Source: Microbacterium salsuginis
GTDB lineage: Bacteria > Actinomycetota > Actinomycetes > Actinomycetales > Microbacteriaceae
DNA length: 64,000 nucleotides
Assembly (NCBI RefSeq): GCF_012524205.1
Contig: NZ_JABACI010000002.1
Location: 62,001 to 126,000, forward strand
Direction: 5' to 3'
Position 1 is the stretch's first letter. The number at the start of each line of letters is the position of its first letter. Of the stretch, positions 15,559 through 22,722 are shown piece by piece. Position numbers and translations under genes: made by a program. The notes beneath the pieces were generated by a model. It had not been told where the DNA came from. It did no database searches and saw only the letters and a list, made by a program, of their open reading frames with translations.

Positions 15559-17010
15559 TCAGCGGCTGAGCAGTTCCGCACGCTCGCGTGCCCGCTTCTC
15601 CTTCTCACCGGCCTCCGCGACCGCGGCCTCTTCGAGGCCCTGGACTCCGACCGCGTCCGGCGCATTCGACATGCCGTCGTGGTCGTCACCGGCCAGCGTC
15701 GTCTCGTCGAAAGGCAGGTCGCCGGCCAGGACGCTGCGAGCCCGGCTCGCGTCGAACTCCTTCGTCCATGAGCCGATCAGCACGGTGGCCACCGCGTTGC
15801 CGGTGAAGTTGGTGACGGCCCTGCCCTCCGACATGAACCGGTCGATGCCGACGATGACGCCGACACCGTTGACGAGGTCGGGACGGTAGGCCTGCAGGCC
15901 TCCGGCGAGCGTGGCAAGGCCTGCCCCGGTGACGCCCGCGGCGCCCTTGGAGGCGACGATCATGAACACCAGCAGGCCGATCTGCTCGCCCAGCGACATC
16001 GGGGCGCCCATGCCGCTCGCGATGAACAGCGACGCCATCGTCAGGTAGATCGCAGTGCCGTCGAGGTTGAACGAGTAGCCGGTCGGAACGGTGATGCCCA
16101 CGACGGGCTTCGAGACGCCGAGGTGCTCCATCTTGGCGATGAGGCGGGGCAAGGCGGACTCCGACGACGACGTGCCGACGATCAGCAGGTACTCCCGCGC
16201 GAGGTACTTCACGAGGGCGAAGATGTTGATCCGCGTCACCGCCCACAGCAAGGTGCCGAGCACGCCGATGATGAAGATCAGGCACGTCAGGTAGAACGCG
16301 ATCATCAGCGTGCCCAGCGCCCAGATCGCGGCGATCCCAGTATTGCCCACGACGGCCGCGATGGCACCGAAGGCGCCCAGCGGTGCCAGCCACAGGATCA
16401 TGCCGAGGATGCGGAACACCAGCGCCTGCAGGTGCTTGACGGCGTTCATGACGGGCGCACCGCGGTCGCCCATCTGCTGGAGCGCGAATCCCACGAGCAG
16501 TGCGATGAAGAGAACCTGCAGCACGCTCTCGCCGGTGAAGGCCGAGAAGAACGTGGTCGGGATGATCCCGAGGATGAACTCCTGGGTCGTCTTCGCCTCC
16601 GCGGTCGACTCGTAGCTCGAGCCGGCCATGTCCAGTCCCTCGCCCGGGTGGAGCATGTTGCCGACGAACAGCCCGATGGCCAGCGCGAACGTCGACATGA
16701 CCATGAAGTACAGCAGTGCCAGGCCGCCGATCTTGCCGACGGTGGCGGCCTTGGCGATCGACCCGACCCCGACGACGATCGTGCAGAAGATGATCGGGGC
16801 GATCATCATCTTGATCAGCGCGACGAAGCCCTCGCCCAGCGGCTTGAGGGCGACGCCGACGTCGGGCCAGATCAGGCCGACGGCCGCGCCGAGCACGACG
16901 GCGGCGATCACGGAGAGGTAGAGCCAGGTGTGCTTGTCCCATGCGCGCTTGCCGCGACGGAAGTTGAAGCCGGGAAGTGTGAACGAAGTCGTCCGGGTCG
17001 AGAGAGCCAT
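15559..17010 (-). CDS. dctA: C4-dicarboxylate:cation symporter, DctA type
   Basis: This DAACS-family transporter should import succinate, fumarate and malate with protons or sodium. The 483-residue product has eight membrane helices and the re-entrant loops. Family motifs are the serine-rich GTSSSESALPRLI (about residue 285), GYSFNLDGTAIY and the substrate-binding GIDRFMSEGRAVTNFTGN. The C-terminal 60 residues are a charged cytoplasmic tail. I prefer the second of two adjacent ATGs (17010): AGGAGG is 5 nt away, against 2 nt for the first. It is divergent from a CitA/DcuS-type two-component system that presumably senses its substrate. Confidence 0.92.
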   Translation of the reverse strand: MALSTRTTSFTLPGFNFRRGKRAWDKHTWLYLSVIAAVVLGAAVGLIWPDVGVALKPLGEGFVALIKMMIAPIIFCTIVVGVGSIAKAATVGKIGGLALLYFMVMSTFALAIGLFVGNMLHPGEGLDMAGSSYESTAEAKTTQEFILGIIPTTFFSAFTGESVLQVLFIALLVGFALQQMGDRGAPVMNAVKHLQALVFRILGMILWLAPLGAFGAIAAVVGNTGIAAIWALGTLMIAFYLTCLIFIIGVLGTLLWAVTRINIFALVKYLAREYLLIVGTSSSESALPRLIAKMEHLGVSKPVVGITVPTGYSFNLDGTAIYLTMASLFIASGMGAPMSLGEQIGLLVFMIVASKGAAGVTGAGLATLAGGLQAYRPDLVNGVGVIVGIDRFMSEGRAVTNFTGNAVATVLIGSWTKEFDASRARSVLAGDLPFDETTLAGDDHDGMSNAPDAVGVQGLEEAAVAEAGEKEKRARERAELLSR

Positions 17011-17044
17011 CATCGCCTCCTAGGGGTGAACAGTCGTTGTCCGG

Positions 17045-17064
17045 GTCGCACGGACGGGTGCGAC
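17045..17064. promoter_or_regulatory. inverted repeat, candidate operator between dctA and the sensor kinase
   Basis: Perfect 7-bp arms (GTCGCAC and GTGCGAC) are separated by 6 nt, 35 bp upstream of dctA in the divergent gap. It is a plausible site for the adjacent response regulator. Confidence 0.45.
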
Positions 17065-17189
17065 GTGAAGACAGCGTCCGCCTCCCTCGGCGGCGGGGTC
17101 GACTTGTGGTCGTATTGGTCCCGCCGATCAGGGCGCCGATCCAGGCGCAAGGGTCGAGGATGGAGCCACGGCCATCAACGAGGAGTGCC

Positions 17190-18452
17190 ATGTCGATGCG
17201 GACGAGCCCGGGCAGCGCGGCCTCGCGCGTGTTCCTCGTGGTCGCCGGGTCGGTCGCGCTGCTCGTGACGGTGCTCTCGGTGGTCCTCGTCCTCGACGCG
17301 CAGCGTTCGGAGCGCTCCGAAGCCGAGGAGGTGACTCGTGCCGTGGCGACGTCGCTGGCGGCGCTGCCGGAGGTCGCCGGTGCCGTCGGCGGTCCGGATG
17401 CGTCGCAACGGCTGCAGCCGGTCGCCGCGGACGTGATGGAGGTCACCGCGCTCGACTTCGTGACGATCATGACCCCTGATGGCGTGCGCGTCACCCACCG
17501 CTCACCGTCCGAGATCGGCAGGCAGTACCTCGGCACGATCCCCGAGGCGCCGGCAGTGCTCACGGAGGAGTTCACCGGCACGCTCGGCCCCTCGGTCCGC
17601 ACCATCGCGCCGGTGCAGGACGACGGTCGCCTCGTCGGCTGGGTGTCGGTCGGTGTCACCCTCGGCAGCATCTCGTCGCAGCTGCTGCCACGACTGCCGT
17701 TCGTCGTGTCGATCGCGCTGGCACTGCTCGGCGCGGGCGTGGTGGGCGCGCTGCTGGCCCGGCGCACCACGCGCCGGGTGGCCGGCGATCTGCCGGCAGG
17801 CTCGATCCGCGACGCCGTCGCCTCGTACGAGTCGGTCCGCACGCTCGGCGAGGCGCTGCGCGCCCAGACGCACGAGCACGGCAACCGCATGCACACGGCG
17901 GTGTCGCTCCTCGAGCTCGGCCGGACCGCCGAGGCCATCGAGATCCTCACCGAGACCTCGCGGCAGAGCCAGGCACTGGTGGATCAGGTCGCGGCTCGCC
18001 GCGACGGCGACCCCACCGTCGGCGCGCTGCTTCTCGGCAAGGCCGCACAGGCGCGCGAGCGCGGGATCCAGTGGTCGGCCGAGATCGATCCGGCCGCGCC
18101 GCGCAGCTCGCTCCCGCCGATGGACGCCGTCTCGGCGATCGGCAACATGATCGACAACGCGATGGATGCCGCGGCCTCCGGCGAAACGCCGCGCTGGGTG
18201 CGCGTCGTCTTCGCCCGAATGCCCGGCTCCCCCGCCCTGCGCGTCGAAGTGTCCGACAGCGGCGCCGGCATCGCCGACGACATCCGCGACCGGATCTGGG
18301 AGCACGGATTCTCGACGAAGCCGGCAGGCACCGAAGGGCGTGGCGTAGGACTGGCACTGGTGCGGTCGATCGTGACGGATGCCGGCGGCACCGTCGATGT
18401 GCGCCAGGATCCGACGACCTTCGTCGTGACGCTGCCGGCGAGGCATCCGTGA
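17190..18452 (+). CDS. CitA/DcuS-type sensor histidine kinase
   Basis: The 420-residue product has a transmembrane segment (about 12-33), an extracytoplasmic PAS-like sensor (about 34-175, with LDFVTIMTPDGVRVTHRSP), a second transmembrane segment (about 178-200), and then the kinase core. The phospho-acceptor is in LRAQTHEHGNRMHTAVSLL, the H-box form of the citrate/C4-dicarboxylate sensor family. ATP-binding boxes are NMIDNAMDA, SDSGAGI and GRGVGLALV. ATG 17190 has GAGGAG upstream. The stop overlaps the regulator start as GTGA. It faces dctA, so C4-dicarboxylate sensing is the likely role. Confidence 0.92.
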   Translation: MSMRTSPGSAASRVFLVVAGSVALLVTVLSVVLVLDAQRSERSEAEEVTRAVATSLAALPEVAGAVGGPDASQRLQPVAADVMEVTALDFVTIMTPDGVRVTHRSPSEIGRQYLGTIPEAPAVLTEEFTGTLGPSVRTIAPVQDDGRLVGWVSVGVTLGSISSQLLPRLPFVVSIALALLGAGVVGALLARRTTRRVAGDLPAGSIRDAVASYESVRTLGEALRAQTHEHGNRMHTAVSLLELGRTAEAIEILTETSRQSQALVDQVAARRDGDPTVGALLLGKAAQARERGIQWSAEIDPAAPRSSLPPMDAVSAIGNMIDNAMDAAASGETPRWVRVVFARMPGSPALRVEVSDSGAGIADDIRDRIWEHGFSTKPAGTEGRGVGLALVRSIVTDAGGTVDVRQDPTTFVVTLPARHP

Positions 18453-19129
18453 TCCGCGTCCTGGTGGTCGACGACGATGCGCTCACGCTGGAGCTGCACC
18501 GCAGCTATCTCGCACGGCTGGAGGGGTTCGAGCTGGCGGGCGAATGCACGGGTGCCCGCGCCGCGATCGAGGCGCTCCTCGCGGGCGCCGACCGGATCGA
18601 CCTGGTCCTGCTGGACGTCACGATGCCCGACGGCACCGGTGTCGACGTGCTGCGGCACGTGCGCGCCCGCGGCGCGACGGTCGACGTGATCGCGATCACA
18701 GGGGTCCGCGACGCCGAGGTGGTGCGCGGCATGGTCGCGCTGGGCGTCGCGCAGTATCTGGTCAAGCCGTTCACGTTCGCGGTGTTCCGCGAGCGGCTGG
18801 AGCAGTATCGCGAGTTCCGACGCCGGGCGGACGAGTCCGCGGGAGCGCCGACGCAGGCCGAGATCGACGCGATGCTCGGAGCGATGCATCCGGCAACGCC
18901 CGTCCGGCTCCCGAAGGGGCTCGCACCCGAGACGCTTGCCGTGGTCTCGGACGACGTCCGCCGCAACGGTCCCGCCTCGGCGGGTGAGGCGGCGCGGCGA
19001 CTCGGGATGTCGCGGGTCGCCGTGCGCCGGTATCTGGAGCACTTGACCGCGGAAGGCCGCGTCATCCGTTCGCCTCGCTACGGGACGGGCGGTCGGCCGG
19101 AGTCGGAGTATCGCTGGAACGCGGAGTGA
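18449..19129 (+). CDS. CitB/DcuR-type response regulator
   Basis: The 226-residue product has a receiver domain (about 1-120; acidic pocket VVDDD, phospho-acceptor Asp in LVLLDVTMPDG, switch Lys in LVKPF) and a C-terminal DNA-binding part with a winged-helix look (ASAGEAARRLGMSRVAVRRYLEHL). It starts at GTG 18449, inside the kinase stop. The expected target is dctA, perhaps through the inverted repeat at 17045-17064. Its end is 32 bp from the convergent GT4-SGNH gene. Confidence 0.92.
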   Translation: MIRVLVVDDDALTLELHRSYLARLEGFELAGECTGARAAIEALLAGADRIDLVLLDVTMPDGTGVDVLRHVRARGATVDVIAITGVRDAEVVRGMVALGVAQYLVKPFTFAVFRERLEQYREFRRRADESAGAPTQAEIDAMLGAMHPATPVRLPKGLAPETLAVVSDDVRRNGPASAGEAARRLGMSRVAVRRYLEHLTAEGRVIRSPRYGTGGRPESEYRWNAE

Positions 19130-19161: not shown

Positions 19162-21135
19162 TCAGCTCACCCTCGACCGTTCCCGCACGTCGCCACGTCC
19201 GCCGATCTCGGAGTAGTCGTCGTGCTTGGGAAGCAGGCCATCACCGGCCGTGCGACCGCGCAGGCGGCGCCAGACCCAGGGCAGCGCGTCGCGGCCCAGC
19301 CACGACCCCACGGGCATCGGGTCGTCGTCGGCGTGGAGCGCGGCGTCCAGTCCCGCCAGCGCCTCGGCGTCGGGCACACCCAGCGCCTCGGCGGCGCGAT
19401 ACGCCAGGAACCGGTGCCCCCGGGAGCGCAGGTGCACCTTGTCGTCGGCCCACAGGTCGAGGTCGCCGATCGCCGGCAATGCGTCCAGGTCGAGGAGGAT
19501 CGCCCCGGTCGCGGCGGCGATGCGACGCAGCTCGGACGCGTAGACGGCGAACCGGCGAGCGAAGATCCGGGCCGCACGCCGGCGAGGGAGGAACGGCGTC
19601 ACGAGCAGCACGTCGATGCCCGCGGCGCGCAGCGTCGCGATCCCCTGCTCGAGGGCGGCGGCGAGGCGCACGGGGTCGGCCCGCCTGCCCACGAGGTCGT
19701 TCGCGCCGATCAGCACCGAGACGAGGTCGGGCCGCAGCGCGAGCGCGCGCGGCAGCTGCTCGTGGAGCACGTGCTCGACCCGACGGCTGCGCACCGCCAG
19801 ATTCGCGTAGCGGAACGGCTCACGCTCGTCGCGGGCGTGAGCGAGCAGCTGCGCCAAGCGGTCGGCCCAGCCCCGGTACTGTCCCGGCGGCATGCGCGAG
19901 GCGTCGCAGAGGCCCTCGGTGAGCGAGTCCCCGAGCGCCACGTACCGGCCCCAGGGCCGCGGCTGCCCGGTGGCCGTGGCCGGCATCGCGGGCCGTGTCG
20001 CTCCTCGCTGCACCAGCGCATCGTCGATGGGCCGCAGCATCCGCGCCTCGTCGTAGTGCTCGACCAGCCGACGGCAGACGGCGTCCCACGTGCGGTCGCG
20101 AACCGATTCGCGGGCTGCGGCCCCGAACGCCCGGCGCTTGCCGTCGTCGCCGGCGAGATCGGCGACCCGGGCACGCAGGTCGCGGAGGTCGCCCGGGCGG
20201 TAGAGCCAGCCGTCGACGCTGGAGCGCACCAGGTCGAGCGGACCGCCGACGCCCGTCGCGACCACGGGCACTCCGCTGGCGAGCGCCTCCTGGATGGTCT
20301 GCCCGAACGTCTCGCTCTCGCCCGGGTGGACGAACACATCGAAGCTCGCCAGCGCCTCGGCGAGCGCCGACCCGGACAGGTGGCCGGTGAAGACAGCATC
20401 GGGGAGAGCCGCCTCAAGGCCGGGCCGCGCCGGTCCGTCTCCAACGACCACGAGGCGGGTTCCCTCGATGCCCGCCAGCGCAGCGAGGTCCGCAACCTGC
20501 TTCTCGGGGGCGAGCCGGCCCACATAGCCGACGACGGTCTGCCCCGGTGCGACGCGCGCGCGCCACGCGTCGCTGCGCCGCTCGGGGCCGAAGCGCTCGG
20601 TGTCGACTCCGCGCCCCCACCGGCGCAGCCGGTCGACGCCGAGCCCTTCCAGCTGGTGCAGCGACGCCGTCGAGGGTGCCAGCGTGAGCGTCGCCCGGCG
20701 GTGCAGGCGCGATACATGACGGCCGACGAGCGCGGACGCCTGCGGCATCCCGTACTTCTCGGCGTACGCGATGACGTCGGTCTGGTACACGGCGACCGCG
20801 GGGATCCGCAGCGCGTCGGCGGCGGCGAGGCCCTGCCACCCGAGCACGAAAGGCGAGGCGAGGTGGACCACGTCGGGCCGGAACTCGCGCAGGATCGCGG
20901 TGAGCCGGGCAGCCCGCGCGAACACGACGCGCACGTCGGGATAGGAGGGCAGCGGCACCGAGCGCAGCAGCTCGGTGCGCGCACCGTGCAGGTCGGCGGT
21001 GAACTCGCCCGCGCGCGGCGCGATCACCAGGGTCTCGTGGCCCTGGGCGGCAAGGTGACGAAGGACATGAAGCACCGACCCTGTCACCCCGTTCATGTGG
21101 GGCAGGAACGATTCGGCGAGCAGTGCGACTCTCAC
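19162..21135 (-). CDS. fused GT4 glycosyltransferase and SGNH/GDSL hydrolase
   Basis: One 657-residue frame contains two complete enzymes. Residues about 1-370 are a GT-B glycosyltransferase family 4 domain (VALLAESFLPHMNGVTGS, VGYVGRLAPEKQV, and PGESETFGQTIQEAL with the donor-binding Glu). After a 25-residue linker, residues about 395-600 form an SGNH hydrolase: block I ALGDSLTEG with Ser404, block III IGANDL with Asn479, and catalytic Asp565/His568 in ADDKVHL. I chose GTG 21135 because the GT fold begins there; ATG 21210 is an alternative. The fusion suggests glycosylation and deacylation on one cell-envelope glycolipid, which is inference. It is divergent from DedA. Confidence 0.9.
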   Translation of the reverse strand: MRVALLAESFLPHMNGVTGSVLHVLRHLAAQGHETLVIAPRAGEFTADLHGARTELLRSVPLPSYPDVRVVFARAARLTAILREFRPDVVHLASPFVLGWQGLAAADALRIPAVAVYQTDVIAYAEKYGMPQASALVGRHVSRLHRRATLTLAPSTASLHQLEGLGVDRLRRWGRGVDTERFGPERRSDAWRARVAPGQTVVGYVGRLAPEKQVADLAALAGIEGTRLVVVGDGPARPGLEAALPDAVFTGHLSGSALAEALASFDVFVHPGESETFGQTIQEALASGVPVVATGVGGPLDLVRSSVDGWLYRPGDLRDLRARVADLAGDDGKRRAFGAAARESVRDRTWDAVCRRLVEHYDEARMLRPIDDALVQRGATRPAMPATATGQPRPWGRYVALGDSLTEGLCDASRMPPGQYRGWADRLAQLLAHARDEREPFRYANLAVRSRRVEHVLHEQLPRALALRPDLVSVLIGANDLVGRRADPVRLAAALEQGIATLRAAGIDVLLVTPFLPRRRAARIFARRFAVYASELRRIAAATGAILLDLDALPAIGDLDLWADDKVHLRSRGHRFLAYRAAEALGVPDAEALAGLDAALHADDDPMPVGSWLGRDALPWVWRRLRGRTAGDGLLPKHDDYSEIGGRGDVRERSRVS

Positions 21136-21274
21136 GCGACCAGCGTGACGGCCCGACAGACGACCGGACGCCACAAAACGACCCCGGTGACGAGAGTTCA
21201 CCGGATGCACCGCTCCACGTCACCGGAGAGGCTCCGTTCCGTCGCCGTTCACCCTGGCCCGTTAGGAAGGAGGC

Positions 21275-21874
21275 GTGATCGACGAGCTGCTGACACAGAC
21301 GGCGCAGAGCCCGTGGGCGCTCCCCCTGCTGTTCGCGCTCGTCCTCGGCGACGCGTTCCTGGTGGTGATTCCGGGCGAAGCCGCGGTGACCGCGTTCGGT
21401 GCTCTCGCCGTGTCGGGCGGTGAGCCGCCGTTGGGCTGGGTGGTGGCGGTGGCGACGATTGCCGCACTGCTGGGCGACGCCGCCTGCTATCTCGTGGGAC
21501 GCACCGTCGGCCTGCAGCGCTGGCGATGGATGCGGGCGGCCCGCGTGCAGTCGGCGTTCGCGTGGGCGCAGGCCCGGCTCGAGCGTCGCTCTGCGCTGGT
21601 GCTCTTCACCGCGCGGTTCATCCCGTTCGCGCGCCTCGCCGTGAACCTCACCGCCGGCGCGACGCGGATCCGTGCGCCGCGGTACCTCGCAGTGGCGGGA
21701 CTCGCGGCGCTCGCATGGGCGCTCTACCAGGCCTTCATCGGCGCGGCCGTGGCGGCCGTCGTGCCCGGCGGACCGGTCGTGGCCGTCGTCGTGTCGGTGG
21801 CTCTCGCGGTCGGGATCGGCCTCACCGTGGACGCGGTGCTGGCGCGCCGCATGCGCACTCGGCGGCCGGAATGA
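21275..21874 (+). CDS. DedA family membrane protein
   Basis: The 199-residue product is a small DedA/SNARE-associated (VTT) protein. DedA members translocate lipids such as undecaprenyl phosphate or phosphatidylethanolamine. Visible features are PGEAAVTAFGALAV in the first re-entrant region, the conserved arginine region FTARFIPFARLAVNLTAG, and several membrane helices. AAGGAGG precedes GTG 21275. It is divergent from the GT4-SGNH fusion and overlaps the endonuclease gene by 4 bp. Confidence 0.9.
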   Translation: MIDELLTQTAQSPWALPLLFALVLGDAFLVVIPGEAAVTAFGALAVSGGEPPLGWVVAVATIAALLGDAACYLVGRTVGLQRWRWMRAARVQSAFAWAQARLERRSALVLFTARFIPFARLAVNLTAGATRIRAPRYLAVAGLAALAWALYQAFIGAAVAAVVPGGPVVAVVVSVALAVGIGLTVDAVLARRMRTRRPE

Positions 21875-22722
21875 CCGGTGGCGGCCAGGATGGAGTGGTG
21901 GCGGACATGACCTCGGCGGGATACGACGACGATTTTCTCGGCATCCGGGTTCCGCTCCCCCGCCCCGCCGGCGGGCGTGAGGTGCGCGAACTGCCGTACC
22001 CGCGCTTCACCGTGCTGCTCGATCCCGCGCGCACGCTCGCGGCCGTCACCGGGGTGAACATCGACGGTGCTGCGCTGCGGGATGTGCCGCGCACCGGCGA
22101 GTGGCGGCTCGATTCGAGGCTGCCCGTCGGCGAGCAGGCCGGGCCCGAGCTCTATGCCGCGAACGATCTCGATCGCGGGCACCTCGTGCGCCGGCGCGAT
22201 CCGGGCTGGGGTGGCGCGGCCGAGGCCCGGCAAGCCACCGAGGCGACCTTCTTCTACACGAACGCGGCGCCGCAGGCGGCTGCCTTCAACCAGTCGAAGG
22301 ACCTGTGGCTCGGGCTCGAGGACCACGTCCTGCAGTACGCAGACGCGACCGCGCAGCGGGTCAGCGTCTTCACGGCGCCGATCCTCGCGAACGATGATCC
22401 GGTCTATCGCGGCGTCGCCATCCCGCGGCGCTTCTTCAAGGTCGCCGCGTGGACGGCTGCCGCCGACGACGGGATGCCGCGACTGGAGGCGGCCGGGTTC
22501 GTGCTGGATCAGTCCGAGCTGCTCGACCTGCGCCAGGGCGCGCTGGCCGTACCGCGGCTGGGCGCCTTCCGCACGTTCCAGGTACCCATCGCCGAGATCG
22601 CCGGCCTCGCCGCCCTGGACCTCGGTCCGCTCACGGACGCCGATGTGCTCGCCGCCCCCGCCGTGCGGGGCGAGGGCGGCTGGCGCCCGCTCATCGGCCC
22701 GGGGGACGTTCAGCTGCGCTGA
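21871..22722 (+). CDS. DNA/RNA non-specific endonuclease (NUC1/EndoG family)
   Basis: This is a beta-beta-alpha-metal nuclease. The catalytic DRGH is in NDLDRGHLVRRRDPGW, and the metal-ligand Asn region is FFYTNAAPQAAAFNQ. The product is about 283 residues from ATG 21871, which overlaps the DedA stop; GTG 21898 and ATG 21907 are alternatives. Unlike many secreted members I see no signal peptide, so its location is unclear. Translational coupling to DedA is unusual. It converges on the FMN reductase gene with 15 bp between stops. Confidence 0.85.
   Translation: MTGGGQDGVVADMTSAGYDDDFLGIRVPLPRPAGGREVRELPYPRFTVLLDPARTLAAVTGVNIDGAALRDVPRTGEWRLDSRLPVGEQAGPELYAANDLDRGHLVRRRDPGWGGAAEARQATEATFFYTNAAPQAAAFNQSKDLWLGLEDHVLQYADATAQRVSVFTAPILANDDPVYRGVAIPRRFFKVAAWTAAADDGMPRLEAAGFVLDQSELLDLRQGALAVPRLGAFRTFQVPIAEIAGLAALDLGPLTDADVLAAPAVRGEGGWRPLIGPGDVQLR

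Follow-up and report, generated by a model that had tools for sequence, protein, structure and literature searches.

The 64,000-nucleotide stretch of the Microbacterium salsuginis genome analyzed here (the window) carries a gene whose single frame encodes a GT4 glycosyltransferase (GT) and an SGNH hydrolase, with a DedA-family gene diverging from it (Table 1). Pfam places Glyco_transf_4 at residues 15-181 (E = 2.5e-27; 96.4 bits against a cut-off of 28.5), Glycos_transf_1 at 195-343 (9.8e-24; 84.2 bits against 26.4) and Lipase_GDSL_2 at 400-575 (3.7e-27, above the curated cut-off); frame and Pfam thus bear out the initial annotation, which had read one uninterrupted frame with both enzymes and a short linker. 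The start codon is a GTG at 21135; the 42 alignment rows, trimmed to the residue that aligns with it, all open with a start codon read as M. A GTG at 21210, also in frame, is a possible alternative. In the predicted model, the C-terminal tail forms helices at residues 590-600 and 612-625, a possible membrane-contact element.

Table 1. Features of the fusion locus, in window coordinates.
Feature	Position	Strand	Remarks
GT4-SGNH fusion gene	19162..21135	-	single open frame including stop; 657 aa
GT4 (GT-B fold) glycosyltransferase domain	20008..21135	-	residues ~1-376; Pfam and PimB' fold match
EX7E motif of GT4 (E275, E283)	20287..20313	-	invariant, 52/52 homologues
Linker	19948..20007	-	residues ~377-396; length differs among homologues; low pLDDT at 388-390
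SGNH/GDSL hydrolase core	19378..19947	-	residues ~397-586; Pfam, model and fold matches
Catalytic serine codon Ser404 (GDSL)	19924..19926	-	52/52
Block III Asn479	19699..19701	-	52/52
Block V Asp565-x-x-His568	19432..19443	-	52/52
C-terminal tail with conserved PWxxRRLRGRTAGDG..KH segment	19165..19377	-	basic and Trp-rich; alignments
Divergent intergenic region	21136..21274	.	between the fusion and DedA genes
DedA-family (VTT domain) membrane protein	21275..21874	+	Pfam VTT, 8.2e-21

The fused frame is conserved and old. The initial annotation had named homologues encoded by two separate genes, joined here by a sequencing error, as the finding that would overturn it; this was checked, and the homologues keep the fused frame. 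With 52 distinct homologues and both domains in one frame at 66 of the best 80 named loci, an artefact is ruled out and its residual probability is negligible: nothing was found in its favor, and one genome (G001) shows the reverse, a full-length match whose frame is split by a frameshift inside the SGNH part. The count for the named loci treats L247, whose contig ends within the GT, as not fused and L201, whose contig starts within the GT, as fused. Full-length matches occur in 19 of the 23 genus genomes, the M. salsuginis genome included, and were not found in the other four (G004, G008, G013 and G017). The closest named matches among the best 80 loci are from Microbacterium (82-85%), and the fused loci in this set come from Microbacterium, Agromyces, Leifsonia, Schumannella, a Cryobacterium metagenome-assembled genome (MAG) and further MAGs named only to higher rank. 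In the family and order searches, few candidates were scored per genome; among the matches listed, the fusion is present in at least 26 of 299 sampled family genomes and at least 9 of 85 genera, and in 396 sampled order genomes no GT row from outside the family reaches past residue 444. Pairwise dN/dS ratios are low in both parts (11 pairs: 0.08-0.22 for the GT, 0.03-0.29 for SGNH), and both domains are therefore maintained by purifying selection.

A GT tree was built from 72 rows, among them 27 of the 121 fused ones (a set in which some genomes appear twice, e.g., as L002 and L180); all fused rows in it fall into a single clade (SH-aLRT 97). Five GT-only rows are nested within it: three from isolates (L240, L241 and L248) and two from MAGs (L245 and L246). 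The topology fits one fusion event followed, by parsimony, by four losses of the SGNH domain. Two strains of M. aurantiacum differ in this respect: Sa12 has the fusion (L220), and GX14001 has the GT alone (L241). SGNH paralogues are present elsewhere in the M. salsuginis genome; separately, in Microbacterium indicum DSM 19969 (L203:8001-10814) a single stop separates the fusion gene from an in-frame downstream stretch that encodes another SGNH protein and resembles a tandem duplicate of the domain.

The DedA identity of the divergent neighbor, also proposed initially, is upheld by its VTT domain. The neighborhood is conserved: the two genes adjoin divergently at 57 of the 66 fused loci among the best 80 named ones. 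A close copy of DedA is absent from all four fusion-less genus genomes, where the best match is at most 39% or, in G017, a remnant; two fused control genomes have copies at 80% and 62%. In G017, a deletion (scar at L170:5740-5970) has brought the very end of the SGNH domain up against the very end of DedA, which indicates that the pair was lost together. The GT-only MAG loci L245 and L246 retain the DedA neighbor. The DedA protein scores 45.9 bits against the NCBIfam UptA model, below its cut-off of 250, and is not assigned to UptA.

The initial annotation credited both enzymes with complete motif sets. This holds for the catalytic residues: Ser404, Asn479, Asp565 and His568 of the SGNH domain, together with E275 and E283 of the EX7E motif of GT4 enzymes, are invariant in 52 of 52 distinct homologues (own included; one is clipped N-terminally by a contig end). 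It does not hold for block II, where classical SGNH enzymes have a Gly and the fusion has Ala447, present in 42/42 fused rows and matched by Ala in at least 90% of the 49 rows of a wider alignment. The assignment to the SGNH superfamily stands despite Ala447 because the Pfam match and the fold comparison both uphold it. The backbone NH of Ala447 could still serve the oxyanion hole, and the substitution does not discriminate between acyl transfer and hydrolysis.

An AlphaFold model of the whole protein (pLDDT 83.1, pTM 0.63) shows two domains, one GT-B and one SGNH; because a fold search with this model listed GT matches and barely tested the SGNH part, the latter was folded separately (pLDDT 92.9, pTM 0.90). 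The GT part has the GT-B fold of the retaining GT4 enzymes, with Z scores of 33.7-37.2 to MshA, BshA, PimB' and PimA (PimB': Z 35.5, rmsd 2.5, 347 residues aligned). The SGNH part matches 3rjt (Z 20.7, rmsd 2.7, 189 aligned) and TesA (4jgg, Z 19.7), and its fold neighbors, among them TesA/lysophospholipase L1, Streptomyces phospholipase A1 and an M. smegmatis aryl esterase, are mostly hydrolases, with a sugar acetyl esterase, the acetyl-xylan esterase Axe2 (Z ~20), among the top ties. TesA and the aryl esterase have the SGNH fold in common with the fusion (Z 17.6-19.7) at 20-24% identity over the aligned part; their solved chains extend no further than an SGNH domain. No evident transmembrane segment was found in the fusion protein, in which the highest 19-residue mean hydropathy is 1.55; since this leaves no membrane-spanning stretch, the SGNH domain should, judging from the sequence, be cytoplasmic.

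The GT domain shares the GT4 fold and motifs with the lipid mannosyltransferases MgtA, PimB' and PimA of Corynebacterium and Mycobacterium, and the solved PimB' and PimA chains, unlike the fusion, are of GT length only. MgtA (NCgl0452/Rv0557) uses GDP-mannose, and the fusion GT may be an ortholog of it. MgtA is described as making mannosyl-glucuronosyl-diacylglycerol (PMC3229680). In a profile search against solved structures, a UDP-glucose enzyme (2.8e-17) ties with PimB' (3.4e-17) at the top, and PimA is likewise near the top; the folds of UDP-sugar GT4 structures match the domain equally well or better than those of PimB' and PimA. This tie and the equally good UDP-sugar folds count against a firm choice of GDP-mannose as the sugar donor. 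The best NCBIfam match is NF053787 (GlcN_PG_synth, a GlcNAc-phosphatidylglycerol synthase model; E = 8.4e-47), and membership in this family was rejected, the score being 159.7 bits against a curated cut-off of 480.

Coupling of this kind of GT to SGNH genes extends beyond the fusion. In sampled genomes of three other families, the GT gene is followed by a second GT gene and then by an SGNH gene in an operon (f10, 8/8; f9, 6/8; f14, 1/6), and an SGNH gene lies directly after the GT gene in G578 (f6), G113 (f1) and Arthrobacter sp. Bz4. The GT and SGNH genes of the Arthrobacter strain (L243:8001-9941) share one reading frame, interrupted by a single stop and a short spacer, so that in this natural arrangement just one stop codon separates the pair from being a fusion. 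Most unfused relatives of the GT that were sampled nevertheless lack such a neighbor: an SGNH gene within ~4-5 kb of the GT is found in 1/21 genomes of f6, 0/11 of f7, 0/4 each of f8 and f12, 0/1 each of f2, f15 and f18, and in 1/16 unfused cases of f1. Six of these 16 f1 GTs form a divergent group (49-52% identity), and the four of them that were placed in the GT tree fell outside all others. Family f6 corresponds by similarity to Micrococcaceae, the GT of Arthrobacter sp. ISL-85 being 89% identical to that of L098. One f6 genome, G027, carries two SGNH genes related to the direct neighbors elsewhere on its contig, so a genome with no SGNH gene next to its GT may still have the enzyme.

An SGNH tree of 19 of the 121 fused SGNH rows, the unfused partners and 15 paralogue rows (matches shorter than 180 residues excluded) resolves three separate lineages: the fused domains (bootstrap 92, SH-aLRT 94), the direct neighbors (L100, L161 and L243) and the operon SGNHs. 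The fused and the directly adjacent SGNHs separated once the paralogue rows had joined the tree, and on the strongly supported branches the adjacent state by itself must have changed at least twice. These sequence comparisons indicate that GT-SGNH coupling arose repeatedly, with different SGNH lineages. That different SGNHs were repeatedly recruited to a single kind of GT speaks most strongly for a pathway shared by the two.

Candidate products come from lipid chemistry. Microbacterium, Micrococcus luteus and Arthrobacter atrocyaneus have all yielded glycerolipids with an acylated mannose, and 1-O-acyl-3-[alpha-Glc-(1-3)-(6-O-acyl-alpha-Man)]glycerol is reported from Microbacterium strain DSM 12583 (PMC10786734). 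Testacosides A-C of M. testaceum bear only one acyl group each, a C15-C17 branched chain on O-6 of the mannose, and their glycerol is free; testacoside D, from the same species, is a mono-acylglycerol with its chain on the glycerol and O-6 free (PMC10786734). The text of the testacoside paper mentions neither glycosyltransferase nor SGNH (PMC10786734). M. testaceum FXH-28, a strain other than the testacoside producer, has the fusion (L187). An open-literature search on dimannosyl lipids returned nothing. To our knowledge, no gene has been assigned to the acylation of mannose in these glycerolipids.

A comparable activity is that of PatA (Rv2611c), a PF03279 member that would perform a similar reaction by acylating a mannose attached to a lipid; its family differs from SGNH and is missing from the Microbacterium genomes examined. 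Rv2611c is described as an acyltransferase of phosphatidylinositol mannosides (PMC3229680). A PF03279 protein was considered as the mannose acyltransferase of the M. salsuginis genome and rejected, since 0 of 23 genus genomes (G000-G022), including the four without the fusion, carry one; PF03279 proteins do occur in the C. glutamicum control and in 12 of 15 genomes sampled from other families. That PF03279 is missing says nothing about its substitute. How phosphatidylinositol mannosides fare in a genus without this family may merit a look.

The likeness to PimB' and PimA, the known Microbacterium mannolipids and the absence of PF03279 together suggest mannosylation of a glycerolipid and movement of an acyl group to the mannose. 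The best reading, which we hold tentatively and would not yet back against the sum of its competitors, is that the fusion is a bifunctional glycolipid-synthesis enzyme, cytoplasmic and peripheral to the membrane, that mannosylates a glycerolipid and then transfers an acyl group to that mannose. The GT4 domain would attach an alpha-linked sugar, most likely mannose, to a glycerolipid such as diacylglycerol; Ser404 of the SGNH domain would take an acyl group from the same or a neighboring lipid and pass it to O-6 of the new mannose; and the product would be the 6-O-acyl-mannosyl glycerolipid core known from Microbacterium, to which a second, separate glycosyltransferase would add the outer sugar. 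A homolog of the operon's second GT was sought in the M. salsuginis genome as this outer-sugar transferase and rejected: the best match is the fusion's own GT domain, and the others are weak. The acyl step is the weaker half of the reading, the fold neighbors of the modeled SGNH domain being mainly hydrolases.

The fusion may be the maker of the unusual mannose lipids of Microbacterium. A more specific version, rather improbable as a whole, is that one polypeptide combines a mannolipid synthase with an intramolecular transacylase: diacylglycerol would be mannosylated and its glycerol-bound acyl group moved to O-6 of the mannose, a CoA-free cytoplasmic replacement of PatA that would explain the 6-O-acyl-mannosyl glycerolipids of the genus, the same coupling having been built independently in other actinobacterial families. 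Several observations count against the best reading. Among the matches listed, the fusion is found only in the minority of sampled family genomes given above (at least 26 of 299). Arthrobacter and Micrococcus are reported with 6-O-acyl mannolipids, yet most unfused relatives of the GT have no SGNH gene nearby, and one lies beside the GT in 1 of 21 f6 genomes. PF03279 is missing also from the four genus genomes without the fusion, and the UDP-sugar matches of the GT and the mostly hydrolytic fold neighbors of the SGNH domain weigh against it as well. The earlier proposal that the two activities act on the same envelope glycolipid is strengthened in one part, that they serve one product, by the single origin and conservation of the fusion, by the GT's coupling to two other SGNH lineages in further families and by the 6-O-acyl-mannose lipids known from Microbacterium. 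The product could be an envelope glycolipid, on which an acyl group would be added, moved or removed.

Several other readings compete with this one. An unlikely but serious contender makes the SGNH domain a deacylase, which would convert the glycosylated lipid, or the lipid acceptor, into a lyso-glycolipid while 6-O-acylation is done elsewhere. The nearest solved SGNH folds, esterases, the thioesterase/lysophospholipase L1 and phospholipase A1, are those expected of such an enzyme, and the acylation states of the testacosides, with a single acyl group in A-C and a mono-acylglycerol with free O-6 in D, imply that deacylation occurs in the genus or during work-up (PMC10786734). Fused to a biosynthetic GT, however, a deacylase would counteract lipid anchoring, which is an argument only, and in a genus without PF03279 acyl transfer needs some other enzyme. 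It is improbable that the domain handles a short acyl group, as an acetylesterase or acetyltransferase acting on O-acetyl groups of a mannosylated lipid or lipoglycan: Axe2 is among the tied folds, but fold rank is uninformative on chain length, and the known Microbacterium lipids have C15-C17 chains on mannose (PMC10786734). The SGNH domains of AT3-SGNH fusions, thought to carry out the final acyl transfer to glycans, lend this idea a precedent, although they act outside the cytoplasm (PMC9558356) and the present protein has no evident transmembrane segment.

The remaining alternatives concern the sugar and the meaning of the fusion itself. That the GT uses a UDP-sugar (glucose or GlcNAc) on phosphatidylglycerol or diacylglycerol, with the SGNH domain editing that lipid, seems slightly more improbable still: GlcN_PG_synth is its best NCBIfam match and UDP-sugar GT4 structures fit as well or better, but the GlcN_PG_synth score is far under the cut-off and the GDP-mannose enzymes PimB' and PimA are among the best profile matches. 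There is very little room for a fusion that merely couples the expression of two enzymes acting on different molecules. The GT-only versions inside the fused clade (the three isolate and two MAG loci) and the SGNH paralogues elsewhere in the genome would be compatible with it; two other SGNH lineages coupled to the same kind of GT would be unlikely without a shared pathway.

No description of a GT4-SGNH fusion was found in the open literature, a coverage outside which most subscription papers fall, in line with the initial annotation, which knew of no characterized example; domain databases may well display the arrangement. Nearest among described proteins are the AT3-SGNH fusions (OafA/OafB, OatA), in which SGNH is likewise joined to another enzyme and a sugar is acylated, but there SGNH is paired with a membrane acyltransferase and located outside the cytoplasm (PMC9558356), whereas here the partner is a GT, there is no evident transmembrane segment and no AT3 Pfam match was found in the protein. 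The novelty is that of a conserved, apparently uncharacterized variant with a testable product, not of a new enzyme class. The fusion offers a concrete one-gene candidate for mannose acylation, for which strains that naturally have the GT alone, such as M. oryzae ZSM5, provide ready controls; if the best reading is true, SGNH domains would join the intracellular enzymes of lipid-linked sugar acylation.

The wider neighborhood has features of its own. Downstream of DedA, the window encodes a DNA/RNA non-specific endonuclease (21838-22722, + strand; Endonuclease_NS, 1e-38), a relative of which lies at most 8 kb away in 14 of the 53 fused named loci with long flanks. On the other side (15559-19129), a possible dicarboxylate transporter gene on the - strand adjoins a sensor kinase/response regulator pair, all named by eye; relatives of the kinase and of the regulator are each near 24 of the same 53 loci.
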